From a virus, in the IMG/VR virus record IMGVR_UViG_3300048587_000084, positions 1-63,927 of that record: a stretch of DNA of 63,927 bases. One strand, given 5' to 3'. Each line of letters starts with the position of its first letter. Position 1 is the stretch's first letter. Position numbers and translations under genes: made by a program. The notes beneath the pieces are model-generated. The model saw only the letters and a program-made list of their open reading frames with translations, ran no database searches and was not told the DNA's origin. Below, piece after piece: positions 2,838 through 61,635 of the stretch.

Positions 2838-2840
2838 CGC

Positions 2841-30650: not shown

Positions 30651-31142
30651 TTAGTTGAGGGCGAGCCTCATCTGCGGATGCAGTTGCGCCAGCGCCTGCA
30701 GCTGCTGCGGCTTGATGTCCTGCCATCGCCGCATGTCGCGCGCGGACTCTGACACGTGGCGCTTGTCCGACAGGTGCTGCTGATAGGCCTTGTTGAAGGC
30801 GTCGAACGCCTGCATGGCTTGGGCGCGGATGAACTCGGCCATGCAGTCGAAGGCCCTGATGAACGCTTCTTTGATGCGTGCGGCCTCTCGCCCTGTGAAG
30901 CCCATCACGAGAAACATGAAGCCGTTTTTCGTCATGCGGACTTCGCGCCTGCTTTCGCCTTTTGCATCCAGGTATTCAACGGGCTCAAAATTGAGCCGGT
31001 TGAAATCCTCGCTGCACTCGATGTTCTCGTAGGCGCGAAGCACGTTCTTGTGCTGCTTCTTGAAATGCTTTGCCACGGTGCGCGAATCGGTGAACACGCC
31101 AGCATCGCTGGCGACAACAAAGTCCTGCGGAACGATATTCAT
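30651..31142 (-). CDS. rha: Rha-family phage regulatory protein
   Basis: A 163-residue protein with the Rha domain: DSRTVAKHFKKQHKNVLRAY near residue 20, LDAKGESRREVRMTKNGFMF and LVMGFTGREAARIKEAFIRAF. Rha proteins are phage regulators, known from phi80 and P22-like phages, that interfere with infection of some hosts. The ATG at 31142 with GGAG six bases upstream is preferred to a longer form. It begins right after the terminator of the giant gene, so it needs its own promoter; none is obvious by eye. Confidence 0.8.
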   Translation of the reverse strand: MNIVPQDFVVASDAGVFTDSRTVAKHFKKQHKNVLRAYENIECSEDFNRLNFEPVEYLDAKGESRREVRMTKNGFMFLVMGFTGREAARIKEAFIRAFDCMAEFIRAQAMQAFDAFNKAYQQHLSDKRHVSESARDMRRWQDIKPQQLQALAQLHPQMRLALN

Positions 31143-31242
31143 AGTGAACTCCAATCTCCGGGCATAGGAGCGCGGCCGGCCGGGCTAGGAGACATCGCCC
31201 GGCACGTCGGCCGATCGTGCCTAGGCCGCGCGTAGAAACGAG

Positions 31243-31297: not shown

Positions 31298-34200
31298 CTA
31301 CTGGGCCATACCGAGCTGACTTTCCAGCCTTGCCTTGATCCGCGGATCAACTACCACACCGTTCTCCGCCTGCGCGCTGAACCGTGCACGCTGCTGGAAG
31401 CTCTTGCGAATGCTGTCGCTGGTGATGGCCAGCTCTGGGTACTTGCGGCTGAACGCCATCATCTTGACGCGCACGTCTTCCTGCGCGTCGGTATCGCCCA
31501 GGCGCCAGGCCATGGCAAAGGCGTCCATCAGGCGGGTGCGGCGGGCCTTGATGTAGTCGGCGTAGCCCTTCACGTCGCCTCGGATGTCGTAGGCGTTGGC
31601 CACTGCGGCCGGCGCCATGCCCATAAGCTGGGCAATGGTCGGGATCACGCCCAGGTCATCCACCACCGGATCGCCGCGCATGTTGTTCACGCCCTCATCC
31701 ATGTAGCGCACGGCCTTCATCGCGTCCTTGATGGCCTTGGGCAGCATGGTTTCGACGCCGCGCCACACCTGACCTTCCTCCATGAGCTGCATGCCGCGCA
31801 GCGCACTGACGAACATGCCGCCCGCCACAGGGCCCGCTGCCTGCTCCAGCCAGTAGTGAGCCAGCGCCTGCCCTTCCATCTCGCGATCTGGCGAGCGGAA
31901 CCACAGTTCGCCCAAGCCAACGCGTGAGGCGATGCCCATGCCGGTGGCGGCCTGCACCGGCCCGCGCATGACGTACTCGGCGCCCTTCTCGCCCAGCATC
32001 TCGCGCCAGAATGCGCGCAGCTCGGTTTCAGCGTCCCACGGCTCGTCATCGTCGCCGAAAGCTGCTGCCAGCGCGTTCATGATGCCCATGACCATGCCCA
32101 TCATCGGCAAGCCCATGGTGCCGGAGAACAGCGCCGTCATCCCCAGCGTGCCGGTCAGCGCGCGCATGTTTTCCTTGCGGGTTGCGGGATCAGCGTCCTT
32201 GAGCGACTTCCACGCCATGCGGCCCAGCAGCCAGGTCATGCCCATGCTGTACTGCTTGAACTGCAGCAGCACCTTGGCCACGGCGCCGCGCATGTAGCGG
32301 CTGCGGTTGGACGCGCTGTAGTCGAAGTGGGTCTGGTTGACCGCCTTGTCGCCCAGCTCGATCGCCATGTCGTGGCTCTTGCCGGAGGCGCGCGCCATCC
32401 GGTAGGTGGCCAGCGACGTGGACTCACGGTTGACCACCTCGGCGCGGTGGAATAGGAACGAGGCCCAGCTCAGCGCCTTGTGCAGCATCGGGTTGTAGGT
32501 GTGCGTATCGGTTTCGCTCAAGCCTGCCAGGTTGTGCACCTGCGACTTGTCGAACGTGCCGCGGCGCTTGAACTCCGCGTAGGCGCGCTGCTCATCGTCG
32601 GTGAGCGCGCCCGGTCCCTCGATCTTGTCGGTATTGCCCAGGGTACGTGCCGACTGCTTGAACCCGCGCCACAGCTCGCGCGCGGCGACGTCGAAGCCAT
32701 AGCGCGCGCCGAGCACGGGGAACGACACCATGGCCGTCTGCAGCAGGTTGACCAGCGCGGCAGCGGGTGACACGGCCAGATACCAGAGGAAGCCTAGCGT
32801 GGTGAGCTTCTGCGCGGCGCCGGAGTCCTGCGGGTTCATCACCCACTCGTGCCGGTCGCGCAGCTCGCCCACCAGCTGCCCCGCCTTGTTGGCGTCCGGG
32901 CTGTCCACCTCGGCCATGCTGTCGGCCAGCGCCTGCGCCTTCAGTACCTGCGCATCCAGCTTGTGCGTGTATTTCAGGCGGGCAATCTGGTAGCTGCTGT
33001 GAAACACGTGGCTGGCCAGCGCGCGCACCACGTCCTCGCTGAATCCGGGCGTGCCCTTGCGATGGATGAAGTTCTTGCGCATGGACATTTCCGGCAGCGT
33101 CGTCAGGTACAGCTGATAGACGTCGTTGCGGATCTTGTCTGGCGCGTGGCTCTCCTGCAGCACTTTGTCCACCTCGGCGATGAACGATGCGCTGGCGCCT
33201 TCGAGCTGCCGCGTCATCTTCGACTTCACGCCGCTGCTGATTCGGGTGTAGCCGGCCGCGCTCAGGCGCTTTTTCACCATCCGCTGTTCTTCGGTGGACT
33301 CCTGCATGTGGAACTCGCGCGTGCCATCTGGCGCGGTCGCGGCCACAAAGTATTCGCCCCAGCGCGACAGAGGCACGTAGAACGGTACCCGGTTGCTTTC
33401 AAAGTTCAGCTTGAGCTGCGCGATCATCCGCGCCTTCTGGCGGTCGTCGGTGATGGCCGCTTTCAGGCTTTCCATCAGCGCGTCCTGATACTTGTCGCTC
33501 TGCGAGGCGTAGGCGTCGCGCAGCTCCACCCACAGCTTTTTGCCCTCGGGCGACAGCTTAGACCAGATCGGCTTCATGGCTGCGTGCGAGTCAGCGCGCT
33601 TTTTCTCCTGCGCCAGCATCTTCTTCGCCTGCTTTTTGCGCGCGATGAAGTGCTGCGCCGAGCCCGGCGACATTTTGGCCAGGTTGTCCATGAGCTTGGT
33701 GAACGCCTTGACGTTCGCCGGGGTCACGGGCTGGTTGCTCTGCTCGGTGGCGTCCAGCATCAGCAGCGGCTGGTGATCGGCCGCCGGGTCGACGCCGGCC
33801 AAGGTCGCATCCATCAGCATGCGGTACATCTTCAGCGCCTCGGCCTTGTTGGCGCCCTGGTACTTCATGGCGCCTTCGACAATGTCGATGCTCACCTGCT
33901 GCAGCTCATTGCGCAGCGTCTGCATGTGCTGCACGGTGTCCGCGTATTCGGCCACCGGCGGCAGCAAGTCCTCACCAAGCTCGCCAAGGTGGCGTAGCTG
34001 CAGCGCGCCGAGTGCAGCCGGGCGCCAGTCGGCGGCCTTGTCCTTGAGGCGCTGCAGCAGCGTCGTGTCCTTCGGGCTGATCGCTTCCTGGAGGCGGTCG
34101 ACGATGGTGGGCTCGGAGCCTTTGGCGAATAGTGCCCCTTGACGTGGCGCAACATCAGCAACCGAGTCATGCTCGATCGCGATCTTAGTTGGCGACTCCA

Positions 34201-37200
34201 TCACGGCACCCCACGCGCGACGCATGTCCTCTATCGCCACGGCGTTCGTTGCGTTATCAGCAAGGTAATTGGTCATCCCGCGAAGCATTGCGCGCGCTCC
34301 ACTGAAGCGCTGTCGACCAAGGAATACATCGTTGATCTGAGGCGATAGTGGCCGAGGCCCCTTCATGTTCGGCGTCATCCCAAGCGAGCGCTCTCGATGA
34401 AACGTCTCGATTGTTGCCCTACCAACAGAGTCGACGCGTGCAATCAGGTAGCGGCCATCCATGCGATTCACCCGGATGTCAGCAGTTGGCTTTTCGCCAG
34501 TCAGGTCAAGGTCGACGTACTCGACCTCCCACCCAGCATCACGCATAACCCGATTGAGCTGGATCGCGCGCTTGTTAACCGGCGCGGCGTCCTTCCCCTT
34601 CGCGAACAGCGCCTGCCCCCCAGATGCGCCAAGCCCCTCGCTGGGAGGGGCTTGGCGGGTGTCTTGCTGGTCGGGTGATGGCGGAGGCTCATCCATCAGA
34701 TCCAGCGCCATTCGTCCGCGCTTGCGAACGTCCGCGCCTGGGAACTGGCTATGAATCGCCTCCGCAGACTCCTCTTCGTTCGCGCGGTCAAGGGCTGCGT
34801 AGGCGATCTCCATGTCGTCGAAACCAGCGGCAGTTAGACGCTGGTACTCATTGGCCGAAACATCCACGATTGGCAGCTTGTGCCCGCGCTCGGCAGCGAC
34901 TGAGGCGCGGTTGTGACCATCAAGAATCTCGCGCGTCCCATCGTCCTGCAAGATCGTGACCGCAGGGAAATACTCGTCGCCTGGGAAGTCTTCACGTACC
35001 GCATCAAGTCGGTTCTGTTCCGACTCACGAAACACCAGTTCGGCAGGATCGACAAGCGTGCGCTTCATGCCCCCAACGCTACCACCATCCTTTCCAAAGC
35101 TATACCGCTCCATCGCCTCCCGCTGCGTCGTCGGCTCCGGCCGCCCAAGGATCTTCTCAGCGCTCGATCGATACGCACGCCCCTCCAGCTTCTGCCCAGC
35201 CTCCCACAGCAGTTGCCGCAGCTCGCCATGGCTCAGCTCCAACTGCGGGAACAGCTTTCGCAGCCACGCGCGCACGGCGTTCATGGCGCGCTGCAGGATG
35301 CTTGTCTGGATGTTGCGCTCGGCGAACACGGCGATCGCCTCGCTGGCGAAAGTCGCATCGTTCAGCGGCCGGAACGTGCCATCGGCGTTGCGCTCGTAGC
35401 GCCTTTCCACCTCGGCGAACACCTCGGGCCACTTGCCGCGGTCCTTCAGCGACACAATGCGGTCGGTCAGCTCGCGGAACAGCTTGGGCCCCAGCATCTG
35501 CTCCATCGACAGATGCCCCACCATCTCGTGCGCGAACAGCTTGGCCGCATGCTTCGGGCTGCGGATGCGAGCGGCCACGAAGTACACGGTCTTGCGGTCG
35601 CCGGTGATGGCGGCCTGCACCGTGTCGTCATAGTCGTCCTGCGCAACCACCTCGGGCGCCACGCTGGCCAGCTCGGCGCCGTTGGCGACCACCACCACGC
35701 GGATGCCCTGCTCCTGCATCGCATCTGCAGCGCGCTTGAATTGAGCCTGCAGTGCAGCCTTGCTCAGTCCGCGCGCGCCGGCATCGCCAGCGCCGCGGGC
35801 GTACAGGATGCTTTCTAGCTCTGACCCGCGTAAGCCAGCGCGGCCGAGCTGAAGCAGGCGCGTAACCACCCCTCGCCATGCAGGCGTGCCTGCTCTGCGT
35901 TCCAGGGATCGCGACACCACTCCACGACGAAGCGTTGATACTCCCGCTCGCGCCGCTCTGCCTGCTGGGGACTCGGCGAGTGTTTGGAAATCAGCGCGCG
36001 TAAACGGCTTTCCGCTTGCACCAACGAATTGTCCGCTGTCCCAGTCATAGTCGATCGCCTGCAGGTCTGGCACGTTGTCGACGACATTGTCTGCCGAAGC
36101 GCGGATCAGCTCAAGCAGGTTGTTCTGGTCGTCGCCCTCGATCCAGTCGAGCCCCTGGTCCTCGTGCGGCAGCATGTGTTTCGTGGTGCCGGTCTTGAGC
36201 GCGCTTGACAGCATGTGCTCGCCGCGGCGCTGCATCGCGGCCTCGCTGACGTCGGCCGGGTCCGGAATGAAGGTGATGCCGTTGTTGTGCGCATAGGCCA
36301 GCGCGATCGAGTACAACGCGCTGCCACGGTGCACGCCTTCCTGTAGCTGGCTGGCGTCCATCGCCAGTTCGCCATCAAGGATGGTCATGGTCACGGCCTT
36401 AGGCTTGCCAAGCGGGTTCACCTTGACGCCGGTGAGCGCGCGCACGTGCGTGTTGAGCCCGGCGGATCTGCCGGCGGTGCCGCTCTGCGCAAGCAGGCGG
36501 TCGGCGATCTCTTGCCCGAACTCCGTCACCACGTCCGCACGGCCGTTCACCGGCATGCTGAACGCCTCTTTGCCGTCTTTGGTGTAGCCGAACAGCGTTC
36601 CGTGACCAATGTCCGTTGGCGCAATGCCCACGCCACCGCTGGTGCGCACGTATTCCACCCGAACCAGCGTGGTGCCCATGTCGCGGGCGACGTTGCCGGC
36701 ATCATCCTTCTGCGGCTGCACCGTGATCGTGGCGCCGTCGTCCACCTCCACCACCTCAGCATCCGGAAGGATCGCCTTGGTGATGTCCTCGAAGCTCTTG
36801 GCATACGTGCGCGGGCGCTGGAACGTGCCGGGGATCTCCGCCAGCGCCTGCCAGGCGCGCGCCGTGGCGGGGGTGAACTTGGGGGCGTCGGCGGACTTGG
36901 AGAAGCTGGCGCGGTTTCCGCCATCTAGCTTAGCGATCTCCGCGTCGAGCTTGTCCTTCGGGAAGGCTCTCTGTTCAAGCGCGGTTTTGATTGTGCCGCG
37001 ATTCTCGACGATGGCCTTGTTTGCCGCCTCGATGGCTGCCTTGCGCGTCTTGCCGAGCCCAACACGCAGCCCGGTTGTTGCCTCCATGATCTCGAACTGC
37101 CCGCTATCTCTGCCAACGCCTGGGGCGATGTAGAACTGGCCATCTGGCATCTCAGACAACTCGATGCTCTTGGCGTTCGGCTCGTGCACGATATCGCCGC

Positions 37201-40200
37201 CAAAGTTGCGGAAGTACGGCCGACTACTCACTACACTACGCGCCGGTGTCGACTCGATACCTGCGGCAGGCGGCGCCGGTAACGCTGGCGCAGCATTGGA
37301 AACATTCGTCTGGACGACAGTCTCCGGGGTCGGCCCCGTGCCGTCCTTCGGCGTCTCGCCTGGCTTAGCGTGCACGATCGGCGCCTTGAACTCGCGCTGC
37401 TCGTACAGCGGCATGCCTTGCGCGTCCTTGGCGTCAAGGTACGGGATTACGACCTCCCCGCCCTTCGCGTCTTGCGCGATGACAAACCACCCGGCGCCGT
37501 TCCAACGATGGCCGGTCACGACGAATGCCGTTCCGTTCCACCGCACCTTAGTATCAATCGCGGCGCCGTTGCGCAGCCACGCCGGCGGCGGCACCGGGTT
37601 GAGCTGGATGTCCTTTTCAAGATTGAGCAACTGCTGCTCGGCGCGCTTGAGTTGATCGGCGCGCTGGAACTTCTGCCCCGCCACTTCGTCAAGTCGCTGG
37701 ATTGTTTCGAGAGCCGGTTGAATCCGCGCGCGCAGCTTGTCGACTGTGCCCGTGTACGCCCGCAGTGACGACTCCAGGCTTGCCACCGATGCGGCGCCCG
37801 TCGCGACTTCCTCTCCGGCAACCACTGCGACGAATACCGGGGCCTCATAGAAGCGAGGCCACGCCACATGCAGCGGCAGGCCGCCGTATGAGCCGATGCG
37901 CATTGGATCGGCGCCGGTCCTCATGTTGGCGCCGATGAACTTGCCGATCGCCTCGTTCGCCTCCTTGCGCTCGGAGATCTCTACGCCGTCGACTGTGATT
38001 CTGAACTTGTCGCCAGCATGGTCAGCAACCGCCTTGGCGGCCATTTCTTGGGCGCCGGACTTCTCGATGCGATCGATCTCGGCCCGCTGACGCGCCAAGC
38101 CGTCGCGAGCGTTGCGCGCGGTGCTCTTGGCATCCGCCACGCCTTGCGTGTGCAGGCGCTCGCGCTTTTGCAACTGCTCAACTTGCGCGACCAGCTTTTG
38201 ACGAATCAGAACGCGCGGATCACCGGCAGCTTCGGCAAACGTGCTGATGATGTCGCTTTCCTCATCGGATGCAGCGTCGCCCTCAATTACGCGAGTGTCC
38301 CCGTCGGCCTTCAGGAAGTCCGTAATGAACTTCTGTTTGATGGCCAGCACCTGCCAGCGCCGCCCGTCGATGCGGTCGGTGATGTACCGGTACTCCATGA
38401 CCGTGTTCCACTGGTTGCCCTGGCGGTGCCCGCGGCCGTTGCGTTGCTCCAAGTCGCCAGGCATCCATGGCGCGTCCAGGTGGTGCATGGCGCGCAAGTT
38501 GCGTTGCATGTTGACGCCAACGCCAAGGGACTGCGTGGAGCCGATGACGATGCGCACCGTGCCGGCGTTCATGGCGTCGGCGATCTCCTTTCGCCTGTCC
38601 TTGCTGGTAGAGCCGTCGACGATCTCGATCTCTGAACGCGGGACGCCCTGCTGCACCAGGCGTTCAACCATATCTCTGATGGGCGAGAACACCTTGACCT
38701 GCCTGCGCAGCGTTACCCCGTCCGCGTCCTTGATCGTCCCGCCTGCGGCGTCACGCAGTGCGCGGTTGGCTGTAGTTCCAAGCCCGGTGTTGGTGAACAC
38801 CACTTGCGTAGCGCGCGTGTCGCTGCGGTAGATCTCCAGCAGGTTGCGGATGGCGCGAGATACCTTGCTGTCCGGGTGATCTGGGACGTTGCCCTCCTTG
38901 CCTGCCAGCGCCTCATCGTTTTCCATGCGCGCGTCGAAGCTCGCGCGCGCCGCCAACTGCTCGTAGACGATCGGGACAACCGGCAGTCCGGCCGACATGG
39001 CGTCACGACGTGCCTTGCCGCCCATGTTCCGCCACTCATTGGCAAGCGACTGCACGCCTTCGAAGATCCGCATCTGATCTGGCGTTGGGTCCGCCGTCTC
39101 GTTGACCACCTTCTTGTATGGCCTGTCCTTGGCGCCCTCGGTGCGTCCGTTCAGTAGCTCGGCGCGCTCCCGCTCGGTCAGGCTTTGATCCGCCAGCAGC
39201 TTGCCGGATGCGGTTCGACGCGGCTGCATTTCCGGCATGTCGTCGGAAAACACCACGTCCATGTATTGCCCGACCATCTTGCGCAGCTCGGGCACGTTGA
39301 TGAACCCGCGCAGCCTGTTGACCGCCTCATAGTCGCCGGCTGCGGTGAGTTCCACGTCCTGAATTTCTTTGGCAAACGATCCAAACCACCCGTCCCACTG
39401 ATCCACACCCACCGCGGCCATTTCGTCGGCCATGATGTAGCGCATTTGGTGGAAGATCTCGGTCAGGGTGTTGGTGATCGGTGTCCCGGTGAACAGGTGG
39501 ACGTTGCCGCCATTGTTCTGCTCGCGGACGTAGCGCGTCAGGAAACTGAGCTGGATCGAGCCCAGGGACGATTGGGTCTGCAGCCCTTTCATCTTCATGC
39601 GTGTGGCGATCGGCGGCTTCTTGAACTCGTGCGCCTCGTCGACCAGCACCATGTCGATGCCCAAATCCTCGAACGGCACAGCGCCTTCGCGCGATGACTG
39701 CTGCGCCTGCTTCTTGATCGTCTCGATGATGCGTGCGCGGGCCTTGACCAGTTCCTTGGCGGTTGGCGATCGCAGCTTCTTCAGTTCGTCCGGGTCATCC
39801 AGCATTGCGTCGGTGAAGTTCTGGCCATCGTCGCTCGCAGCCAGGCGGGCCTCCGCCTCAAGCGCTTCGATTTCCTCTCGGGCCATGGCCATGAGCGTTT
39901 CCTCACGGAAGGACAGGCGCTCAATCAGCGAGTGCGGCAGCACAATCAGATCCCAGTCGTCATTGGCGATCTGCCGCAAGCGCACGTCGATGGCCTTGGG
40001 CGACAGGTTGTCGATGTAAAGCACCTTCGCCGCCGGGTACATCATTTGGATTTCAGACGCGACGGACTTACTGTTGGCATTGTGTGCCAGCAGAACAGGC
40101 TTCTTGGCGATGCCGTACCTGCGCGACTCGACTGCAATGCCGCCCATGGTGAAGGTCTTGCCGGTGCCGACCTCATGGGCGTTCAGGGATCGGCGCATGA

Positions 40201-43200
40201 CCAGCGCGCGCCAGATGGCGTTGACCTGGTGCTGGCGCAGGTCGAAGGGGCCGCGACCGACGCTCAGCGCCATGCCGTCGAAGTTGAGGAACGAACCATC
40301 GAACGACGGCGAGGCGTAAGCGTTGCGCACCTCGTTGTATTCGCGCTCGATCTCGATCCGGCGCTCGGCGTCCGACCATAGCCAGTCGCCGAACTTCTCC
40401 CGCATATCGGCAATCTTGGCGTTGGTTTCGTCCGTTGCGGTCTGGTCGACAAACTCGCGCCCGTCCCGGTCCCTCTCCTTGATCACAACCGTCTGGTTGC
40501 TGATGGCCGCGTTGACCAGCTTTCCGAATCGGTAGTACCTGGTCCCGAAGCCGGTCTGTGCCTCCGTGGAACGCTGCAGGCTAGGATCGACCGTCACCTT
40601 CCAGCGCCCCATGGTGTAATTGGCGGAGATCCCGTCAGTGTCGCCGCGGTTGAGCATGTGCGCGACAAACTGCTCGTAGGCGCGCGTCGGAACCCAGGTG
40701 GCGCCCATCTGCACTTCGATGTTGAAGTACGGAATGTCGGCTGGCTGCACTTTCTCCAGCGCCTCCACGTTGCGCTGCATGGCGTCGTTGCCATCGGCCA
40801 GCGCCACCTTGGCCTGACGCAGCTTCTCGCGCACGTTGCCGGACAGGTACATATCGGACGGCACGATGTCGCCGCCCGGCGTCTCGAACACGGCGCCGCT
40901 GTCCACAAGCTCGGCGCGCACCATGGCTTCCGGCTTCTGGGCGATCTTCGCGATCTCATCCAGGGATGGGTTCACATTGCCATTGCGCGCCAACACAAAG
41001 GCATCGCGGATCGATGGGTTCGTGATCCGTTTCGCTGACCGGATGGTGCTTTGCGACAGGATTGCAGCCGGGCGGTAGGTGTTGCCGTCCTTTGTTTCCA
41101 GCGCCGCAAGGGCGTAATAGAACGGGTCGTCGATCCTCTCCAGGTAGCCCAGGCCGAAGCTCTCACTCATCGGGCCATATGCCTTGACGAAAGCCTCGTA
41201 CCGCTCCCGTAGTTGCGTGCGGATCGGATCTGGCGCTGCCCCCGACGTTCCGCGCTCGGCTTCGATCAACTGCCCGTAGGACTTGCGCATGTCGATCAAC
41301 GCATTGAGCTGAGCCTCGCGCGCGGCGGTGTCCTTCTGGCTCTTGACCTGATACTTGAGCACCTCATGAGCTGGCGCCAGGTGTTCCCCGCGGACGATGA
41401 ACAGCCCGGCATCGGTGCGCGTGAGCGCCCCCTCTCGGTCGCTGGTGTGATTGGCGATGTAGCTGACCGCATCCTGGCGCGTCGCGGACAGGTAGGCGCC
41501 TTCCGGGACCATCGACACGATGCGGTCGAGCTGCGCCTGCATGTCATCCGGGCGGTGCACGATCATTCCGGGGCGGAACGTGGTCGTCCCGTGGCCATAG
41601 TCGATGGTCCCCACCACGCTTTGCGGGTTGTTCTGGTAGTAGGCGTTGACGCGGACCTTTTCGCCAGCTGGCGTGTCCATCTCGACCGTATCGACCCACG
41701 CCTCGCCGTCCACGTTCGACGCGGGCTCGGGCCGCTTGCGCAACACGATGATGTCAGTGACAACCTTCGTGCCTGCGTAGTTCTCGAAGGCCCCGGACGG
41801 CAGGCGGAAAGATGCCAACAGCTCGGCCTTCTTCGCCAGCTCACGGCGCACCACGGTGCCCTTCTTGTCCATGGACCCAGCGGACGTAATGCCGATCACA
41901 ATGCCGCCCGGCCGCACTTGGTCGAGCGTCTTCAGGAAGAAGTAATCGTGCAGCATTGGGTTCAGGCGGTTGTACCGCCGATCGGCGACCGGGGTGTTCT
42001 CGAACGGCCAGTTGCCGATCACCAGGTCATAGAAGTCGTCTGGCGTCTTCGAGTCCTGGTAGCCCATCACCTTGACCGTGGCGTCAGGGTAGAGCATCTG
42101 AGCCATGCCGCCAGTCACCGGGTCAAGCTCGATGCCGGCGAGCTTGCTGCGCTCTTTCAGGTCCAGCGGCATCATGCCAAAGAAATTGCCAATGCCCATT
42201 CCGGGCTCCAGCACGCGCCCTCCTTTGAACCCCATGCGCCGCACCATTTCCCACATAGCCATGACGGTTGGCGGGTCGGTGTAGTGCGCGTTGGTGATCG
42301 AGCGCTGCAGGCCTTCCCAGTCCGACCTGCCAAGGTGATCGCGCAGCCATTGGTCGCGCTGCTCCCATCCCTGCTTTGGCTGCGGGTATGCCCAGCTGCC
42401 CTGAAACAGATCCTGGCCAAACGAGCCCCAGCCGGTGTATCCGGCCAAGACCTCCTGTTCCTCGCGGGTTGGCCGGCGGCCTTCGTCGCGCAGCGCGACG
42501 AACAACTCGATAGCGGCCTTGTTCTTGTTGAAGCGCGCGACCTGCCCACCGCCGACGATTTCAAGCGGGTTGGCAATGTGGAAGTTGCCGGGGCCTGGGT
42601 TTGCCGGACTGACAGTCTCCGGCTTGGTTACGCCTGGGCGATCTGTTCCTCTTGTGCTTCCGGCTCCAGCATCAGGTGATTTCTTTCTGCCTGCTCCCTT
42701 GCGTCCGGTGCCGGCATTCCCGCTTCCCTGAGACTCTTGCTCTCCTGCCACATCCTCTGTTGGAGAACGAACGCCAGCGGCACTGCCAGATTGTTGCGCT
42801 CCAGGCTTCGCCACATCTTCGGACTGTGCAGCCGCCACGTCTCCAGTATCCGGCGGTGCATTTCCAGATTGTGCATCACGCTCTCGTCGTTCTTGAGCGC
42901 CTGATACTCCTTCCTGATCGCCGCCGCGAACGCTGGGCTCAGTTGGCTTTGGTGCTGCATCGGTGCTGTCCTCCGTGACGTCATCTTGCGCCGGTGCTGG
43001 CGTGCTGTCCACCACCGCATTCTCAACGCTGGCCGCGCTGTCCATACCATCGAAGCCAGCGGCGCGCGGGTCGTACTTCACTCCCATGTACCAGCTCTTG
43101 AGGTACGGCTTTACCGCGTCGCCCAGGTCGTCGACCATCGCCTTGGCGTAGGCCGCGAACGTGCGCGCGCCGCGCTCGATGTGGTACATGCCAAGCGTGA

Positions 43201-46200
43201 TACCGTCGAGCATCATTTCCGGGTCGATGCCGCTGTTCAGCCGGTTGAACTTGGCTTTCAGGCGCGCACGCGCGGCCTCGGCGTCGGCGTCGGTAACGAT
43301 GGTGTTGGCGGATGGTGCGGGCTTGGCCTTTGGTTGCTCGGTCGGCGCTGTGTCTTTGGTGGCTGCAGCTGATTCCTCTGCAGTCATGAACTCCCGCTGC
43401 AGAACACCGCGGTCGATCTGCATGCCTTGGCGTGTCGGCCGCATGCTGACCGTCTCGAAGATGCGAACTCCGCCCTGCGCATACCAACGCACACCGCGCT
43501 CGTCCTCGCGGATCATTACGCCGTCAGCGCGGCGTCCGACAATGCCTTTCTCTGGCTGTGCCGGCGCTGGCGCAGCTTCCACCACCTCTATTTGACGGCT
43601 ACTTGATTGCTTGGCCTGCTCCCGCTCAATCGCCGCACGCACGTCCGCGGCCTGCACCGTCCTCGGCTTGAGGTTGTACGTCACCCCGTCCAGGTTCTTC
43701 GCTTCGGACTTGATCTCCCCAACGATCTCCTGCGCGCGCTTTTTCGTGACCTTGAGCGTATCGCGCACGATCGCAATGGCGTCGCTGCGCAGAATGATGT
43801 TGCGCTTGCTCAGCAGCGCTTCCGGCTTGGCTGCTTCGGCGGCTGGCCCGGCCTCGGCTGCTTGCTCGGTGCGTGGGGCTTCTTGCTTGGCATTGGTCGG
43901 CTCCTGTGCGGCCGCGGTCGCCGCAGTCGCGCCATTGGCCTGCGCCGCCGCCCGCCGCTTCACTTCCGCGATCGTGATCGTGGTGCGCTCCGGCGTGGTG
44001 CGAACTGCCTCCCACACCGCTTCCTCGGCTTTTGTCAGGGTATCCACGCTGATGTTGCCGAGCACCGGTCGATCGTCGCCTTTGGCCTTCACGGCGGCTG
44101 GCGTTGCTACCTGCGCAACCTGTAAGCCTTCCTTACCAGTTGCCTCCGACGTGTTCGCTTCTGGCGCTTTTGCTGACACGTCCGGCGCAGCCGTCAAGGA
44201 TTCCTTGACAGCTCCCACTTTTGGCACCCGCACCACAAACCCGCCATCCACCTCGATCACCTTGCCGCCCGGCGTCCTCTTGGCCGCAGCATCGGCCGCG
44301 GTGCGAATCGTCCACGGCGAGCCACTTGGAGGCGTAATATCGCCTTCCAACTGGTCCGTGCTGGTATCGTATGACTGAGTTTCCGCCGCCCCCTGCGTTC
44401 CGACCGCCACCGATGCGGATGTTTGCGAACTACCAGCTTGGAGTGGCGTGCTACCAGCTTGCGCAGCTGCAGTTTCAGGTTGATCAACTGAAGTGGATTG
44501 AACAGCTGCGGCTGATGCAGTCGGAACGGCTTGTGCAGTGGTCGCTGCCGCCAGATCCTGACTGGCACTCGCCTTCGCCGCTGTAGCCTTCCGCTTCTGC
44601 GCCAGCGCCTGCCGCATCTGATCCACGCGCAGCGGCGTAACGCCGAGCTTCTTGGCCATCGCCATCATGCTTGCGCCGTCGATGGGCTTGCCAGCGTCGA
44701 TGTTGGCCTGCACTACAGCCTGAATATCCGCGTCGGTGGTCTTGAGCGCTTCGGCCTGCGCGTCTTTCTCGGCTTGCCGGCGGTCCTTGTCCGCCTGGCG
44801 CGCGGCTTTGTCGGCTTCCTTGGCCTGCTTCTCGGCGACCTTCTGCTGCTGCACCTGCGCGCGCTCGGCCTCGGCCTGCTGCGCGGCCTGAGCCTGCAGC
44901 TGCTGATCCTGCTCGGTCTGCACGCGCTGCTGCTCGGCGATCGCTGCGGCACCGGTGTCGAACGCGGCCGCAGCGGCCGCCGACGTCGGGCCTGCTGCCG
45001 GATCTGGCCGCGGCGCACGCGTGAGCGCGCTTTCGCGCTTCGCTTCCATCTTCGCCTGGAACGCTGCCGGGTCCGGCGGCGTGGATAGGCGCGTGATCGG
45101 CGTCGGGCCTGCCGGTGCCTGCGCAGTCCCCTGCGCTTCCGCAGCGGCGGCCACTGCGGAGGCCTCCGGCCCACCACGCACGGCCGCTTCGAGCGCCTTC
45201 TGCTGCTCGGCCGCCTGCGCCTTCTTGTCGAGCTTGGCGATTTCCTTCGGGTCGACCACGGTGCCAGTTGCCGGATCGACCAGCAGCTTGCGGCCCTTGC
45301 CCTTCTCCCATCCGCTCACGTAGCCCAGCCGTTCCAGCTCCGCGAACAACTGTTGCTCGGTCTGCCCGTCGATGTTCAGCTTCTGCGCGAGCTTGCCCTT
45401 GCCCGGTACCTTGCCCTTTGTGGTCGCCAGCACCGCCATGGCATCGGCCACCAGGTCGCGCTCTGGCGATGCGGCCGGAACCTGCGCCGCGGTGTCCGCA
45501 ATCAACGGCGGGGCAGCCGGGGCAGTCGTTACTCCCGGCGCCGCACCAGTCGCCACCGCAGTCTCCGCGGCCGCGCCAACCGGTCCGGACGGGCGCGTGA
45601 TCGGCGCTGGCACCGGCGTAATCGCTTGGCTGGCCAGTTCTTCTGGCCGCGGCTCTGGCGCCGTGCTGATATTTGCCGGTGTCGGTGGCGCCTTCGGCTG
45701 CACTTCCGGTGGCCGCGCGAGCGCACCCGCTGGCGCGCCGAGCGCGAAGCCACCAACAGCGCCAAGGCCTGCTTGCTCGCCCACACCCTCGAACGCGGCT
45801 GCATTCGGGTTGACGGTCTGCTCGGCAAGATTGCCGAACAAGCGTCCGCCACCTTCCTCGATGGCTTCCTGAGTTGCCTCGCCAAATCCGCCCTTCGCTG
45901 CTCCGATTACGCGCCCCATGCCCGGTAGCGCATTGCCCGCACCAGCGACCGCACGTTCCAGTGCCCTGGCGCCCGGAAACACCTGACTGGCCAGCGACAC
46001 GCCGGCCGCTCCGGGAAATGCCGTGCGCGCGGCGCCAAGTGCCAAGGCCTCACGAACCGCGGCCGGATCTTCGCCAGCGTCCACGCGCTGCAGGTATTCC
46101 GGGTTGCTCTGCCACACCTCCGGCTTCGCGTCAGACACGCGCTCGTAGGTGCCGGCAGATGCGTCGGCGCCGGCCTGTGCTGCGCCCGTACCAACGCCAG

Positions 46201-46714
46201 CAGCCACGCCAACCAGTGGACTCGCCAGCGCGCCAATACGGCCAGCAGCGAACGCCGGCACCATGCTCGCCGCCGTCGACGCAGCCGTGTCCACAAACAG
46301 CGCAGGGTCTGTGATCGTTTCCGCGATGCCGACGCCGAACTTTGCCAGCTCGCCATCCGCCGAGTTGATCGCATCCTGACGCTGCTGCCGCTTGAGCTTG
46401 AGTTGCGGGCTAATGCCTGCATCCCAGTATTCGCGCGTGCTCTGACCAGTGCGCGTGATCGGGTTGTTCATCTCGCCGGTGGCGAGCCCCGCAAGCGTCC
46501 CGATGTTCTCCACGGCCGAGCCCACACCGCTGGCCAGCGCGCGGCCGGTGTCGGCGATCGCGGTGCCCATGGAACGCGTGATTGGCGGCGGCTTGGCAAT
46601 GCCGGACAGGATGTCCGCATACCGACTTGCCTTCGGCTTTCGTTGCGCATCAGGTGCGCTCTGGACAGCAGGACTCTGCGGCTTTACGCCGAGAATGTCG
46701 TCATAACGACCCAT
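31298..46714 (-). CDS. Giant polyvalent protein (5,138 aa; methylase, SNF2 helicase, metallopeptidase, ParB, PLxRFG)
   Basis: One uninterrupted gene covers 24% of the genome. In order: two RYxDIL repeats (residues 3 and 31); a Gly/Ala-rich hydrophobic stretch (about 140-300); low-complexity and coiled regions (to about 1,100); an adenine-methylase-like domain with motif I VLEPGMGIGNFF (about 1,501) and a variant NWPF (about 1,566) in place of NPPF; a SNF2-like helicase with GTGKT (about 2,183), VDEAH (about 2,357), FTGTP and QRNGRGHRQG (about 2,755); a metallopeptidase HEMVGH (about 3,729); a ParB-like DGHNRAS (about 3,932); and a PLxRFG-type region with PLSRWG (about 4,447) and a hydrophobic segment near 4,850-4,886. 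Such proteins are known or inferred to be packaged and injected, to protect or process entering DNA. The location after internal virion genes supports this. Activities are predicted, not shown. Confidence 0.9.
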   Translation of the reverse strand: MGRYDDILGVKPQSPAVQSAPDAQRKPKASRYADILSGIAKPPPITRSMGTAIADTGRALASGVGSAVENIGTLAGLATGEMNNPITRTGQSTREYWDAGISPQLKLKRQQRQDAINSADGELAKFGVGIAETITDPALFVDTAASTAASMVPAFAAGRIGALASPLVGVAAGVGTGAAQAGADASAGTYERVSDAKPEVWQSNPEYLQRVDAGEDPAAVREALALGAARTAFPGAAGVSLASQVFPGARALERAVAGAGNALPGMGRVIGAAKGGFGEATQEAIEEGGGRLFGNLAEQTVNPNAAAFEGVGEQAGLGAVGGFALGAPAGALARPPEVQPKAPPTPANISTAPEPRPEELASQAITPVPAPITRPSGPVGAAAETAVATGAAPGVTTAPAAPPLIADTAAQVPAASPERDLVADAMAVLATTKGKVPGKGKLAQKLNIDGQTEQQLFAELERLGYVSGWEKGKGRKLLVDPATGTVVDPKEIAKLDKKAQAAEQQKALEAAVRGGPEASAVAAAAEAQGTAQAPAGPTPITRLSTPPDPAAFQAKMEAKRESALTRAPRPDPAAGPTSAAAAAAFDTGAAAIAEQQRVQTEQDQQLQAQAAQQAEAERAQVQQQKVAEKQAKEADKAARQADKDRRQAEKDAQAEALKTTDADIQAVVQANIDAGKPIDGASMMAMAKKLGVTPLRVDQMRQALAQKRKATAAKASASQDLAAATTAQAVPTASAAAVQSTSVDQPETAAAQAGSTPLQAGSSQTSASVAVGTQGAAETQSYDTSTDQLEGDITPPSGSPWTIRTAADAAAKRTPGGKVIEVDGGFVVRVPKVGAVKESLTAAPDVSAKAPEANTSEATGKEGLQVAQVATPAAVKAKGDDRPVLGNISVDTLTKAEEAVWEAVRTTPERTTITIAEVKRRAAAQANGATAATAAAQEPTNAKQEAPRTEQAAEAGPAAEAAKPEALLSKRNIILRSDAIAIVRDTLKVTKKRAQEIVGEIKSEAKNLDGVTYNLKPRTVQAADVRAAIEREQAKQSSSRQIEVVEAAPAPAQPEKGIVGRRADGVMIREDERGVRWYAQGGVRIFETVSMRPTRQGMQIDRGVLQREFMTAEESAAATKDTAPTEQPKAKPAPSANTIVTDADAEAARARLKAKFNRLNSGIDPEMMLDGITLGMYHIERGARTFAAYAKAMVDDLGDAVKPYLKSWYMGVKYDPRAAGFDGMDSAASVENAVVDSTPAPAQDDVTEDSTDAAPKPTEPSVRGGDQEGVSGAQERRERDAQSGNAPPDTGDVAAAQSEDVAKPGAQQSGSAAGVRSPTEDVAGEQESQGSGNAGTGRKGAGRKKSPDAGAGSTRGTDRPGVTKPETVSPANPGPGNFHIANPLEIVGGGQVARFNKNKAAIELFVALRDEGRRPTREEQEVLAGYTGWGSFGQDLFQGSWAYPQPKQGWEQRDQWLRDHLGRSDWEGLQRSITNAHYTDPPTVMAMWEMVRRMGFKGGRVLEPGMGIGNFFGMMPLDLKERSKLAGIELDPVTGGMAQMLYPDATVKVMGYQDSKTPDDFYDLVIGNWPFENTPVADRRYNRLNPMLHDYFFLKTLDQVRPGGIVIGITSAGSMDKKGTVVRRELAKKAELLASFRLPSGAFENYAGTKVVTDIIVLRKRPEPASNVDGEAWVDTVEMDTPAGEKVRVNAYYQNNPQSVVGTIDYGHGTTTFRPGMIVHRPDDMQAQLDRIVSMVPEGAYLSATRQDAVSYIANHTSDREGALTRTDAGLFIVRGEHLAPAHEVLKYQVKSQKDTAAREAQLNALIDMRKSYGQLIEAERGTSGAAPDPIRTQLRERYEAFVKAYGPMSESFGLGYLERIDDPFYYALAALETKDGNTYRPAAILSQSTIRSAKRITNPSIRDAFVLARNGNVNPSLDEIAKIAQKPEAMVRAELVDSGAVFETPGGDIVPSDMYLSGNVREKLRQAKVALADGNDAMQRNVEALEKVQPADIPYFNIEVQMGATWVPTRAYEQFVAHMLNRGDTDGISANYTMGRWKVTVDPSLQRSTEAQTGFGTRYYRFGKLVNAAISNQTVVIKERDRDGREFVDQTATDETNAKIADMREKFGDWLWSDAERRIEIEREYNEVRNAYASPSFDGSFLNFDGMALSVGRGPFDLRQHQVNAIWRALVMRRSLNAHEVGTGKTFTMGGIAVESRRYGIAKKPVLLAHNANSKSVASEIQMMYPAAKVLYIDNLSPKAIDVRLRQIANDDWDLIVLPHSLIERLSFREETLMAMAREEIEALEAEARLAASDDGQNFTDAMLDDPDELKKLRSPTAKELVKARARIIETIKKQAQQSSREGAVPFEDLGIDMVLVDEAHEFKKPPIATRMKMKGLQTQSSLGSIQLSFLTRYVREQNNGGNVHLFTGTPITNTLTEIFHQMRYIMADEMAAVGVDQWDGWFGSFAKEIQDVELTAAGDYEAVNRLRGFINVPELRKMVGQYMDVVFSDDMPEMQPRRTASGKLLADQSLTERERAELLNGRTEGAKDRPYKKVVNETADPTPDQMRIFEGVQSLANEWRNMGGKARRDAMSAGLPVVPIVYEQLAARASFDARMENDEALAGKEGNVPDHPDSKVSRAIRNLLEIYRSDTRATQVVFTNTGLGTTANRALRDAAGGTIKDADGVTLRRQVKVFSPIRDMVERLVQQGVPRSEIEIVDGSTSKDRRKEIADAMNAGTVRIVIGSTQSLGVGVNMQRNLRAMHHLDAPWMPGDLEQRNGRGHRQGNQWNTVMEYRYITDRIDGRRWQVLAIKQKFITDFLKADGDTRVIEGDAASDEESDIISTFAEAAGDPRVLIRQKLVAQVEQLQKRERLHTQGVADAKSTARNARDGLARQRAEIDRIEKSGAQEMAAKAVADHAGDKFRITVDGVEISERKEANEAIGKFIGANMRTGADPMRIGSYGGLPLHVAWPRFYEAPVFVAVVAGEEVATGAASVASLESSLRAYTGTVDKLRARIQPALETIQRLDEVAGQKFQRADQLKRAEQQLLNLEKDIQLNPVPPPAWLRNGAAIDTKVRWNGTAFVVTGHRWNGAGWFVIAQDAKGGEVVIPYLDAKDAQGMPLYEQREFKAPIVHAKPGETPKDGTGPTPETVVQTNVSNAAPALPAPPAAGIESTPARSVVSSRPYFRNFGGDIVHEPNAKSIELSEMPDGQFYIAPGVGRDSGQFEIMEATTGLRVGLGKTRKAAIEAANKAIVENRGTIKTALEQRAFPKDKLDAEIAKLDGGNRASFSKSADAPKFTPATARAWQALAEIPGTFQRPRTYAKSFEDITKAILPDAEVVEVDDGATITVQPQKDDAGNVARDMGTTLVRVEYVRTSGGVGIAPTDIGHGTLFGYTKDGKEAFSMPVNGRADVVTEFGQEIADRLLAQSGTAGRSAGLNTHVRALTGVKVNPLGKPKAVTMTILDGELAMDASQLQEGVHRGSALYSIALAYAHNNGITFIPDPADVSEAAMQRRGEHMLSSALKTGTTKHMLPHEDQGLDWIEGDDQNNLLELIRASADNVVDNVPDLQAIDYDWDSGQFVGASGKPFTRADFQTLAESPAGRAARAGVSTLRRGVVSRSLERRAGTPAWRGVVTRLLQLGRAGLRGSELESILYARGAGDAGARGLSKAALQAQFKRAADAMQEQGIRVVVVANGAELASVAPEVVAQDDYDDTVQAAITGDRKTVYFVAARIRSPKHAAKLFAHEMVGHLSMEQMLGPKLFRELTDRIVSLKDRGKWPEVFAEVERRYERNADGTFRPLNDATFASEAIAVFAERNIQTSILQRAMNAVRAWLRKLFPQLELSHGELRQLLWEAGQKLEGRAYRSSAEKILGRPEPTTQREAMERYSFGKDGGSVGGMKRTLVDPAELVFRESEQNRLDAVREDFPGDEYFPAVTILQDDGTREILDGHNRASVAAERGHKLPIVDVSANEYQRLTAAGFDDMEIAYAALDRANEEESAEAIHSQFPGADVRKRGRMALDLMDEPPPSPDQQDTRQAPPSEGLGASGGQALFAKGKDAAPVNKRAIQLNRVMRDAGWEVEYVDLDLTGEKPTADIRVNRMDGRYLIARVDSVGRATIETFHRERSLGMTPNMKGPRPLSPQINDVFLGRQRFSGARAMLRGMTNYLADNATNAVAIEDMRRAWGAVMESPTKIAIEHDSVADVAPRQGALFAKGSEPTIVDRLQEAISPKDTTLLQRLKDKAADWRPAALGALQLRHLGELGEDLLPPVAEYADTVQHMQTLRNELQQVSIDIVEGAMKYQGANKAEALKMYRMLMDATLAGVDPAADHQPLLMLDATEQSNQPVTPANVKAFTKLMDNLAKMSPGSAQHFIARKKQAKKMLAQEKKRADSHAAMKPIWSKLSPEGKKLWVELRDAYASQSDKYQDALMESLKAAITDDRQKARMIAQLKLNFESNRVPFYVPLSRWGEYFVAATAPDGTREFHMQESTEEQRMVKKRLSAAGYTRISSGVKSKMTRQLEGASASFIAEVDKVLQESHAPDKIRNDVYQLYLTTLPEMSMRKNFIHRKGTPGFSEDVVRALASHVFHSSYQIARLKYTHKLDAQVLKAQALADSMAEVDSPDANKAGQLVGELRDRHEWVMNPQDSGAAQKLTTLGFLWYLAVSPAAALVNLLQTAMVSFPVLGARYGFDVAARELWRGFKQSARTLGNTDKIEGPGALTDDEQRAYAEFKRRGTFDKSQVHNLAGLSETDTHTYNPMLHKALSWASFLFHRAEVVNRESTSLATYRMARASGKSHDMAIELGDKAVNQTHFDYSASNRSRYMRGAVAKVLLQFKQYSMGMTWLLGRMAWKSLKDADPATRKENMRALTGTLGMTALFSGTMGLPMMGMVMGIMNALAAAFGDDDEPWDAETELRAFWREMLGEKGAEYVMRGPVQAATGMGIASRVGLGELWFRSPDREMEGQALAHYWLEQAAGPVAGGMFVSALRGMQLMEEGQVWRGVETMLPKAIKDAMKAVRYMDEGVNNMRGDPVVDDLGVIPTIAQLMGMAPAAVANAYDIRGDVKGYADYIKARRTRLMDAFAMAWRLGDTDAQEDVRVKMMAFSRKYPELAITSDSIRKSFQQRARFSAQAENGVVVDPRIKARLESQLGMAQ

Positions 46715-48276
46715 TACTGTGCCCCTTGCGGTGCGCCGAAGTACCGATCCTGAATCGCCGCGGTCTTTGCTGGGTCGCCCGCAGCCTGATTGAGCGCATC
46801 CATGTACTCGATGTATGCCTGCTCCTGCGGCGTTACCGGGTCCAGTCGATTACCGCGAGCATCGAATCGGCGATCTACCTTGGCCGTTTTGACCTCCCCC
46901 CCGAACCCGCGCGAGATTGGGATCTCGAACGAAGACGTGAACGGCTGGCCTGGCTCAATGTTCTGCAGTTTGGCCCATTGCTGGGTGGCGGCCGGATCGC
47001 CAGCAAGCATCTGGGTTTGCAGTTCTTGCATTTTCTGCGCCTGCTGCAGCTGCAGCTGCTGCGCCTGGGTCTGCACCTGCGTTTGCTCGTTGGCCAGCCC
47101 CTGCGTCTGCTGATCCATGCCCAGGCGCTGTTGCTCCATCGCAAGGCGCGTGGCGTCGTTGGGGTCTGGGCGCGTCATTGGCGTGATGCGCGGCGGCTGC
47201 GCGATCGAAGCGGTTTGCGCAGCCTCCTGCAGCGCGGCAGCCTTCCCGGCATCGCCGTACTTTGCCGCGCGCGTCGCACGCTCATTGAAATCGCGCACTT
47301 TGTAGTCCCGGCCCTGCCTGTCCAGGTTGTCGGCCTGCGCTGCCCGGTCCTCAGCCGTGAAGCCTCGCGGCGCGCGGCTGATCACCCCAGGCGTAACCCC
47401 GCCACTGACCATCGATGCCGCAACACCCGGCGCTGGCGTGCCCATCGGCATCACGTTGCGGCCGGCATACTCGTCAATGAGCCCGCGGTTCTTGTCCACC
47501 CACGCCTGGTCGTACTGCACCGATCCATCGGCTCCGACCAGTGGCGCACCCGGCAGCGCACGCCCACCGACCTGCTCACCATTGACCGTGCGCCGTTCGC
47601 TGAGCGCTACCTGCCCCGGCGCCGCTTCGTTGGCTTTGCCCGACCTGCCGTCGCCGCGAAATGCGATGAATGTGCTGTCGGACGGCGGCGTGGCAATTCC
47701 AGCCGGCGCGGATTGGCCCTGCACTGGCGGCGGCCGCGTCACGGGCCCAACCGTTGGCGGCTGCGCTGGTTGCTGCGGCATGAACCCAGGCGCCTGCGGC
47801 GGCCATGCCGCGCCAGGTGCGGCTGGCTGGGTGCTGCGGGCGATGGCTGCGGGGACGGCCGGCGGTGGGGCAGCCATCGATGGCTGCTGTTGCGCAGCGG
47901 TAGGCTCTCGCATCGGCGGCCCAGGAACGCCTGGCCAGCCAGAATTGAACCGCGGCCTCGTGTCGACAGCTGCTCGCACCTCTGGCAACGCGCGATGGCC
48001 GCGCTTGGTGGGGCTTGGAGACGCCTGCATCACAGGAGGCGCAGCGATCCCCGGAGCCGGCGGCCCAATCTGACTGGGCATCGGCTGCCCTCCGCGCGCT
48101 AGCCTGCTATCCACCAGCTTCGCAGCAGCGGCGCCAGGCGAGAAATGGTTGGTGACGGGCGCGAACATCGCCGCGTCCCGCCGCAGCTTCGGCGCCACGA
48201 CGTCGTTGACCACTGGCGCGCTGCCGATCGCCCCTGCTTTCTGGCGCTGTCGCGTGTACGTATCGTCATTGAACAT
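46714..48276 (-). CDS. Internal virion protein candidate (Pro/Gln-rich)
   Basis: A 520-residue protein with a Pro/Ala-rich N-terminal half (many PPAV, QPPT runs) and a C-terminal half containing a long Gln-rich coil (LGMDQQTQGLANEQTQVQTQ). It overlaps the giant gene by one base (TAATG), so the two are produced together. Disorder and coil are common in podovirus ejection or internal proteins. No named family. Confidence 0.62.
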   Translation of the reverse strand: MFNDDTYTRQRQKAGAIGSAPVVNDVVAPKLRRDAAMFAPVTNHFSPGAAAAKLVDSRLARGGQPMPSQIGPPAPGIAAPPVMQASPSPTKRGHRALPEVRAAVDTRPRFNSGWPGVPGPPMREPTAAQQQPSMAAPPPAVPAAIARSTQPAAPGAAWPPQAPGFMPQQPAQPPTVGPVTRPPPVQGQSAPAGIATPPSDSTFIAFRGDGRSGKANEAAPGQVALSERRTVNGEQVGGRALPGAPLVGADGSVQYDQAWVDKNRGLIDEYAGRNVMPMGTPAPGVAASMVSGGVTPGVISRAPRGFTAEDRAAQADNLDRQGRDYKVRDFNERATRAAKYGDAGKAAALQEAAQTASIAQPPRITPMTRPDPNDATRLAMEQQRLGMDQQTQGLANEQTQVQTQAQQLQLQQAQKMQELQTQMLAGDPAATQQWAKLQNIEPGQPFTSSFEIPISRGFGGEVKTAKVDRRFDARGNRLDPVTPQEQAYIEYMDALNQAAGDPAKTAAIQDRYFGAPQGAQ

Positions 48277-48278
48277 GG

Positions 48279-50201
48279 CTACGCCTCGTGGTTATAGCTG
48301 TGGGTTTCTGAATACGAGTTGCTGCTGCTGCCACTGGCCGAACCGTTGCCGCTAAGACTGGCCTGCACGTGCATGGCACTCATCGCACCCGCCGACAGTT
48401 GCGCGCCCATGGCGCCGGCTGCCTTGAGCGCTTCACTCAGGATCTGGGCTTGTGCCAGCAGCCTGCTTTGCCGATCGGTGTACTGGCGGCTGGCGATCTC
48501 GATGCCGGCGATTACGTTGCGCAGTCGCGCCTCGATGACCTGCACGCGCAGGTTTCGCTCGGTGCTGTCGGCCTGCAGCTCTGCGGAGTAGCGCCCGAGG
48601 TCTGCCCGGAACCCTTCGGCCTTGGCCTGGATCTCGGACACCTCGGCGCGGACGCGGTCGCTCTCGGCGCGCGTGGCGCTGTCGAACTTCTGCACGCTGG
48701 CCAGCAGAGCATCACGGCGCGCGCCGATGCGGCCGAGCTTGATGTTCTCGGTCGTTCCGAAAGCATCGACGGTGGCCGCGAACGCGCGCGACTCACTGTC
48801 ATACATGCCAGCGCGCGCCGCGGCTGCGCGGGTCTGCGCCTCGTAGGCGTCGAACTCCACCTTGCGCGCGCCGATGCGCTCTGCCCACGCCTGTACCTCG
48901 GTGCGGTAGATGTCGGCCTTCGTGCGCTCGATCTCGGCGTTGGCCTGCGCCGCGCTGATGTCGGCGCGGTAGATCTCCACCAGGTTCTTGATCGCGTCCA
49001 AGCGCGCCGAATACTGGCGGATCAGCTGCTCGTTGACCGTACCCTTGAGCGCCTCGGCCTCGATGTAGAGTTTCAGCGCTTCCAGCGGCGCCAGCGCAGC
49101 GCGCAGCTGCGCCTCGAAGATCTGCACCTTGACCGAGCGGGCGGCCTGTTTGCTGTTGAACAGCGCGATGTAGACGTTGACCAGCGCCACTTCGGCGGCT
49201 GATCGCTGCACCGCAGCTTCCAGCGCGCGCGACGCAGCGGCGTTGAACAGCCCGATCAGCATCGTTTCGCACGCGATTCCCTGCGACACGGCGTTGCGCA
49301 GGTTTTCCTGCTCCCACTCTGCGCTCTTGATATAGATCTCGCGACTGAGTACCTGGCTGGCGAGCTGGTTGCGCTCGATGACCTGCGCCACCGCATCCAC
49401 CAGCACGCCGGGCGGCAGCTCGTAGCCGCGGGCAGCAATCGCCGCGTGCGTGTCGTCGATCGCCTTGCGCGCGGCGGTGTCCTCACGAGCGCGGCCGCGC
49501 TCGAACAGCGCTACCTCGACAGCCGGGTGCATGCCGGTGCCACCAGCCATCCAGCGGCGGATCTGCGCCGTGATGTCGGCTTGTAGCGTGGCCGTATAGG
49601 TCGGCTCGGTATAGCTGAACCCGGCGCTTGGCATCGGACCCTGATACTGCGGATCTTCGCCTGCTTCGAGCGTCGGCAGCGTCGGGAACGCCACTTGCGG
49701 GATGGTGATCTCGATCAGCGTCGGTTCCGGCACGTTCGGCAGCATCGGACGCTCCGGAATGACGATCTCGGCCAGCGTTGGCGCTGTTGGTGCGTCGCTA
49801 ACCTGAATCGGTGCCGGCGGGCGTGGCACCTCGAAGCTGGTGATCGACGGCGTGAACGTCGGCGCCGTGCCCCAGGTGATGCCCTCGTCGAAACTGAGCG
49901 TTTCGTAGTTCGGCATCACAAACGGGTCGATCTCGCCCAGCAACGTCACATCCGGGGTATTCAGCTGCGCGCGCGGCGGCAAAGTAACGTCAGGAATCGT
50001 GATCGCAGGTGGAGGTGTATCTCCGGGCAGAAACCTGCCAATTCCCTGCAGGCCCTCGATTGCGGTGAATACGACGTCACTGAACTGGTTTACGCGCTCA
50101 TCCATCGCCGCCATCTGCTGCACGACAACGCCCGCCGGGAACTCATACACGTATGGCATTGACGGCACTTCTGGGAATGTTACATCGGGCTGGAGCGGCA
50201 T
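48279..50201 (-). CDS. Coiled-coil virion/ejection protein candidate
   Basis: A 640-residue protein. The first 200 residues are a Pro-rich beta-type region with repeated I-P-x-V-T-L-P motifs; residues 200-590 are a nearly continuous alpha-helical coil (EIERTKADIYRTEVQAWAER and similar) rich in Ala and Glu; the tail is Ser/Gly-rich (GNGSASGSSSNSYS). Long helical proteins between tail and giant genes suggest an internal core or ejection function. The start overlaps the preceding gene. Confidence 0.6.
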   Translation of the reverse strand: MPLQPDVTFPEVPSMPYVYEFPAGVVVQQMAAMDERVNQFSDVVFTAIEGLQGIGRFLPGDTPPPAITIPDVTLPPRAQLNTPDVTLLGEIDPFVMPNYETLSFDEGITWGTAPTFTPSITSFEVPRPPAPIQVSDAPTAPTLAEIVIPERPMLPNVPEPTLIEITIPQVAFPTLPTLEAGEDPQYQGPMPSAGFSYTEPTYTATLQADITAQIRRWMAGGTGMHPAVEVALFERGRAREDTAARKAIDDTHAAIAARGYELPPGVLVDAVAQVIERNQLASQVLSREIYIKSAEWEQENLRNAVSQGIACETMLIGLFNAAASRALEAAVQRSAAEVALVNVYIALFNSKQAARSVKVQIFEAQLRAALAPLEALKLYIEAEALKGTVNEQLIRQYSARLDAIKNLVEIYRADISAAQANAEIERTKADIYRTEVQAWAERIGARKVEFDAYEAQTRAAAARAGMYDSESRAFAATVDAFGTTENIKLGRIGARRDALLASVQKFDSATRAESDRVRAEVSEIQAKAEGFRADLGRYSAELQADSTERNLRVQVIEARLRNVIAGIEIASRQYTDRQSRLLAQAQILSEALKAAGAMGAQLSAGAMSAMHVQASLSGNGSASGSSSNSYSETHSYNHEA

Positions 50202-59077: not shown

Positions 59078-59080
59078 AGC

Positions 59081-60640: not shown

Positions 60641-60650
60641 TGAGCGCCCC

Positions 60651-61079: not shown

Positions 61080-61099
61080 TTTTGCGGCTCCATAACGAC

Positions 61100-61123
61100 G
61101 AAACCCGCCAGTTGGCGGGTTTC
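61100..61123. terminator. Hairpin within tail block
   Basis: A perfect 10-bp stem GAAACCCGCC / GGCGGGTTTC with a four-base loop. It stands in the 139-base gap between the 61219 and 60651 genes. Its symmetric A/T ends make it terminator-like, so it may partly separate fibre genes from the rest of the tail block. The remaining gap holds an AT-rich patch (about 61130-61150) that might contain a leftward promoter. Confidence 0.7.
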
Positions 61124-61623: not shown

Positions 61624-61635
61624 GTTAGTTTGTCC

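Follow-up and report, generated by a model that had tools for sequence, protein, structure and literature searches.

A DarB-like polyvalent protein of 5,138 residues in a complete-looking phage genome: a conserved NWPF methylase motif and a putative exchangeable cargo slot

The window analyzed here is the entire IMG/VR virus record IMGVR_UViG_3300048587_000084, with a length of 63,927 nucleotides. A single open reading frame on the minus strand runs from position 46714 to position 31298, starts with ATG and comprises 5,138 codons plus a stop codon (15,417 of 63,927 bases, 24.1%). This confirms the claim of an earlier note on the same DNA that one gene takes 24% of the genome. The GC contents at the three codon positions are 67, 47 and 79%. 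The ATG shares one base with the stop codon of the nearer of the two upstream genes (TAATG), and the sequence AAGGGG is located just 5' of the start. The features of the giant gene and its product are summarized in Table 1.

Table 1. Predicted features of the giant gene and its upstream neighbours in the window.
Feature	Residues	Position	Strand	Motif or match
DarB-like polyvalent protein, whole gene	1-5138	31298..46714	-
N-terminal region, Ala/Gly/Gln-rich, poorly conserved	1-1080	43475..46714	-
Conserved uncurated domain	1110-1240	42995..43387	-	roughly 40-58% identity, many relatives
LPD36-like helical domain		42287..42577	-	GXGU motif (GWGS at residue 1428)
N6-adenine methylase	1477-1760	41435..42286	-	motif X HYTDPPT, motif I EPGMGIGN
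Methylase motif IV	1568-1571	42002..42013	-	NWPF
SNF2-type SF2 ATPase	about 2130-2830	38225..40327	-	EVGTGKT, DEAHEF, TGTPITN, QRNGRGHRQG
LPD37 domain	3436-3607	35894..36409	-	PF18853, E 8e-48
Zincin-like metallopeptidase	about 3640-3850	35165..35797	-	HEMVGH + SEAIAVFAE Glu
ParB/Srx-like domain (likely, fold only)	3862-4028	34631..35131	-	ILDGHNRA
LPD39 domain	4219-4433	33416..34060	-	PF18858, E 5e-25
PLxRFG (tail-700) domain	4445-5126	31337..33382	-	NCBIfam NF032893, 732.5 bits
PLSRWG motif	4448	33356-33373	-
Two upstream genes, 520 and 640 aa, within virion gene block		46714..50201	-

The giant gene is placed among virion (late) genes, as is characteristic of DarB-like antirestriction proteins. 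The genes for the major head protein, the portal and the terminase (1489-8161), as well as those for head closure and tail fibres (54590-63153), are located on the minus strand, like the giant gene. An exact direct repeat of 127 bp at the two ends of the record (1-127 and 63801-63927) suggests that the genome is closed and complete-looking. Since 127 is a common assembler k-mer length, the repeat does not prove a physical terminal repeat and probably arose where the ends of a circular assembly overlap. When the adjoining 9.3 kb were compared with phage records by megablast, no match was obtained. A gene for a Phage_pRha regulatory protein (30651-31154) lies directly downstream of the giant gene; Pseudomonas phage vB_PaeM_USP_18 has lysis genes at that place, where none were identified in the window. 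Elsewhere, a 373-aa ORF (24504-25625) matches the DnaJ-type CXXCXGXG zinc finger just under the Pfam cut-off, and a single tRNA-Met gene (anticodon CAT) is present at 12060-12134 on the minus strand.

Being an IMG/VR record, the genome is known from assembled sequence, and the long reading frame might in principle represent two genes joined through loss of a stop codon, or a chimera. Such an artefact is extremely improbable, given that isolate phages show the same single-gene organization with proteins of 4,515-5,145 aa. Moreover, the homologues are collinear with the giant protein over residues 1110-3120 and 4210-5130 without the frame breaks that had been raised as a concern, and the order of homologous regions, core before C-terminal part, is the same throughout.

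Sequence comparisons place the giant protein in an already known family, the DarB-like polyvalent proteins. Pieces from its N-terminus, its middle and its C-terminus all matched PHROG 10089 (profile length 4,647; DarB-like antirestriction), with 1,747 bits for the middle one, and the Pfam families LPD37, LPD39 and Helicase_C scored above their cut-offs. The LPD36-like domain, which carries the expected GWGS-type motif included in the published definition (PMC5512222), is found in one polypeptide with the adenine methylase and the SNF2 ATPase, the arrangement that marks a DarB-like protein. A tblastn search with the core of the giant protein identified 118 phage records with a related core. The nearest isolate relative is from phage USP_18 (60% identity over the core, 4,947 aa), for which a literature search matched only unrelated USP25 papers. 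Other homologues were found in PEp14 (4,914 aa), Atu_ph08 (4,877 aa), BcepMigl (4,658 aa), JC1 (4,515 aa), Mwe-JY07 (4,985 aa) and Pseudomonas phage 8P (5,145 aa). Relatives in IMG/VR are up to 73% identical in the LPD36-methylase segment and include longer ORFs of 5,364, 5,559 and 5,722 aa. The suggestion that the length approaches the largest known in phages of this size therefore holds only loosely: because the proteins of 8P and of these IMG/VR relatives, in genomes of the same size, are longer, 5,138 aa is within the usual family range and no record. With it, one more complete-looking phage is known to encode a large DarB-like protein.

Pairwise alignment of the giant protein to 35 proteins revealed distinct zones. 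Residues 1-1080 were without matches, whereas residues 1250-3120, the methylase-ATPase core, were matched in nearly all of the 35 proteins with a best identity of 64%. Residues 3120-4210 again showed almost no matches, and residues 4210-5130, the LPD39/PLxRFG part, were up to 36% identical. The segment of the relatives that corresponds to residues 3120-4210 is about 234-886 aa long (some of the boundaries were placed by eye) and contains ART-PolyVal, LPD3 or LPD37; in the giant protein it holds LPD37, the zincin and the ParB/Srx-like domain. These alignments suggest that the giant gene combines a constant chassis with a slot for exchangeable cargo at about residues 3120-4210, which provides a simple map for assigning the role of each module on entry. 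P1 DarB is located in the head, and its 30 N-terminal residues are enough to target it to the capsid (PMC9024508). By analogy, residues 1-1080 of the giant protein may carry a capsid-targeting signal. A search of the N-terminal 450 residues against phages gave one weak match. Residues 93-433, in an Ala/Gly-rich stretch, also weakly matched the N4 virion RNA polymerase in PHROG (2e-9).

The methylase domain displays the hallmarks of gamma-class N6-adenine methylases, namely motif I, the Asn and the Pro-aromatic pair of motif IV, and the fold. The closest PDB structures to its AlphaFold2 model (pLDDT 84.5) are HsdM subunits and M.TaqI, with Z-scores of 19-19.6. It does not have the strict NPP(F/Y) form of motif IV, since the giant protein has NWPF, from which the earlier note had proposed that the module may be altered or inactive. 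An alignment of 21 sequences shows no variation at the Asn, Pro and Phe of motif IV; the second position is occupied by W in 18 sequences, by Y in two and by V in one. Among 114 database loci, drawn from two collections with the help of patterns in motifs other than IV, motif IV is NWPF in 77, NVPF in 29, NPPF in three, NYPF in two, and other or unreadable in three. Thus, among related methylases NWPF is the most frequent form of motif IV. With ten isolate proteins (nine NPPF, one NWPF) and the window added, the totals are 79 NWPF, 29 NVPF and 12 NPPF out of 125, where the share among isolates is a biased count because these ten were anchored on the motif string itself. The state of motif IV changed five times on a tree with 114 tips, inferred with the variable column of the motif left out. 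P1 DarB has GNVPF at the place aligned with motif IV. Since most of the clade and P1 DarB have NWPF or NVPF, a strict NPP is not diagnostic of the DarB clade. Simple pairwise counting against four relatives yielded dN/dS values of about 0.2-0.26 at dS values of 0.7-1.1, which places the methylase domain under purifying selection.

It may be asked whether the methylase is catalytically dead and kept as a DNA-binding or structural guide for the SNF2 motor. The first Pro of NPPF is indeed replaced, and we found no report of measured methylase activity for any DarB. We consider this rather unlikely, however, because distant relatives retain motif I, the HYTDPP region and the Asn, Pro and Phe of motif IV, and because the variation among W, V, Y and P is confined to a single position in otherwise fixed surroundings. 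The low dN/dS values, the NVPF of P1 DarB, which is genetically functional in antirestriction, and the NLPY used by the N6-adenine dimethylases KsgA/Erm also speak against it. Taken together, the distribution of motif IV states, the P1 motif, the dN/dS values and the fold model give no sign of inactivation and speak against it. Our reading is that NWPF represents a functional variant of motif IV and not a defect, and methylase activity is predicted. As NWPF is a conserved state, motif-based calls of dead methylases in polyvalent proteins are unsafe. A more far-reaching proposal is that DarB-type methylases with NWPF or NVPF form a distinct group in which the change in motif IV alters the substrate or the mode of action, and that this form, not NPPF, is the working antirestriction enzyme; we regard this as very unlikely. 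Possible illustrations of an altered mode, to which we give just as little credence, are that the adenine is bound and flipped without methylation, or that the enzyme acts only during translocation by the ATPase.

The motifs of the ATPase were found to be intact, as the earlier note had stated. EVGTGKT is located at residue 2181 and VDEAHEF at residue 2358. EVGTGKT, DEAHEF, TGTPITN and QRNGRGHRQG are kept in 18 aligned sequences; the DEAH of relatives varies as DEVH, DEGH or DESH. The PDB sequence matches of the ATPase are SNF2-family remodellers.

In the slot, the site HEMVGH begins at residue 3729 (35513-35530). It is present as previously claimed, although not in the canonical HEXXH form: there are four residues between the histidines, giving HEXXXH. 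A HEXXXH set of zincins in polyvalent proteins has been described by Iyer and colleagues (PMC5512222). Four aligned sequences have a HEMVGH-type site followed downstream by a Glu (SEAIAVFAE), in agreement with a zincin. A scan for loci related to the zincin segment alone confirmed no relatives. For the adjacent ParB-like segment, close relatives, short proteins among them, were found in a small number of IMG/VR contigs. Its signature is FRExxQN...ILDGHNRA...GFDDMEIAYA, and the domain also occurs in short proteins of the viral contigs L158, L159 and L041. The segment had no Pfam family match, and a PDB profile search with the ParB-like alignment returned nothing relevant. The top PDB rows for its structural model (pLDDT 73.7) are ParB, Noc, sulfiredoxin and similar, with Z-scores up to 8.4, as compared to 4.6 or less for ribosomal and other unrelated rows. 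The model thus points to a likely ParB/Srx-like fold, and to the fold only. With this qualification, the combination of methylase, SNF2-type helicase, zincin-like peptidase and ParB-like modules is supported.

The C-terminal domain scored far above the cut-off of 100 bits for NF032893 and is thus assigned as a PLxRFG domain. The other 27 proteins in which the motif was found have PLxRFG or PLxRYG, whereas the giant protein has PLSRWG, which had also been taken as a possible sign of alteration or inactivity. Because a single aromatic residue has been swapped, a conservative change, and the domain match is 732 bits, PLSRWG is uninformative about loss of function.

Comparison with named systems showed that the cores of Pseudomonas phages vB_PaeM_USP_18 and USP_25 are most similar, with 60% identity over residues 1350-3100, GNWPF and, likewise, a single gene after the virion block. 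Their slots differ, with two HExxH sites and no LPD37 or ParB match, and their C-termini have PLSRFG and are only 28% identical. The 8P protein resembles the giant protein in length, in its 63.8-kb genome and in a PLSRFG C-terminus, but has NPPF, different cargo and a core that is about 30-35% identical. Single giant virion genes are also found in Bcep22-like phages, where JC1 gp69 takes 22% of the JC1 genome (PMC9144972); unlike the giant protein, JC1 gp69 and the BcepMigl homologue have NPPF, no PLxRFG by pattern and a core of about 28-30% identity. P1 DarB shares the order of methylase then SNF2 ATPase and scores 178 bits against the core profile, but it is 2,255 aa long, has NVPF and shows no match to the PLxRFG/LPD39 part or the zincin-ParB cargo.

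For the giant protein itself, the analysis establishes its ancestry, its set of domains, the integrity of the motifs in methylase, ATPase and peptidase, and constraint on the methylase. Its role is modelled on homologues that are only about 28-33% identical to it. JC1 gp69 was identified in CsCl-purified virions by mass spectrometry with 51 unique peptides (PMC9144972), and P1 DarB is a virion-borne antirestriction protein (PMC9024508) that guards DNA in cis from EcoK-like (type I) enzymes (PMC5512222). By this analogy the giant protein is probably virion-borne. We are fairly confident in the overall reading of a DarB-like polyvalent protein, carried in the capsid and released together with the DNA, with an antirestriction core in which NWPF is functional. 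The protein would be packed into the capsid and ejected alongside the DNA, on which the LPD36-methylase-SNF2 core would translocate and probably methylate, so that the incoming genome would be shielded against type I-like restriction. A model of methylation in transit has been put forward in PMC5512222. The zincin would probably cleave the polyprotein, and the slot between the helicase and the C-terminal domain would hold LPD37, the zincin and a ParB/Srx-like nuclease or NTPase as exchangeable cargo. P1 DarB requires partners, including DarA, DdrB and Ulx. Alternatively, the giant protein might mainly be a structural or ejection protein of the virion in which antirestriction is minor or lost, as the PLxRFG/LPD39 C-terminus is kept in Skulduggery, a relative that lacks a matching methylase core, and the homologue in 8P carries the annotation of a structural protein. 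This is unlikely, since conservation is highest in the methylase-ATPase core (up to 64%), which P1 DarB shares.
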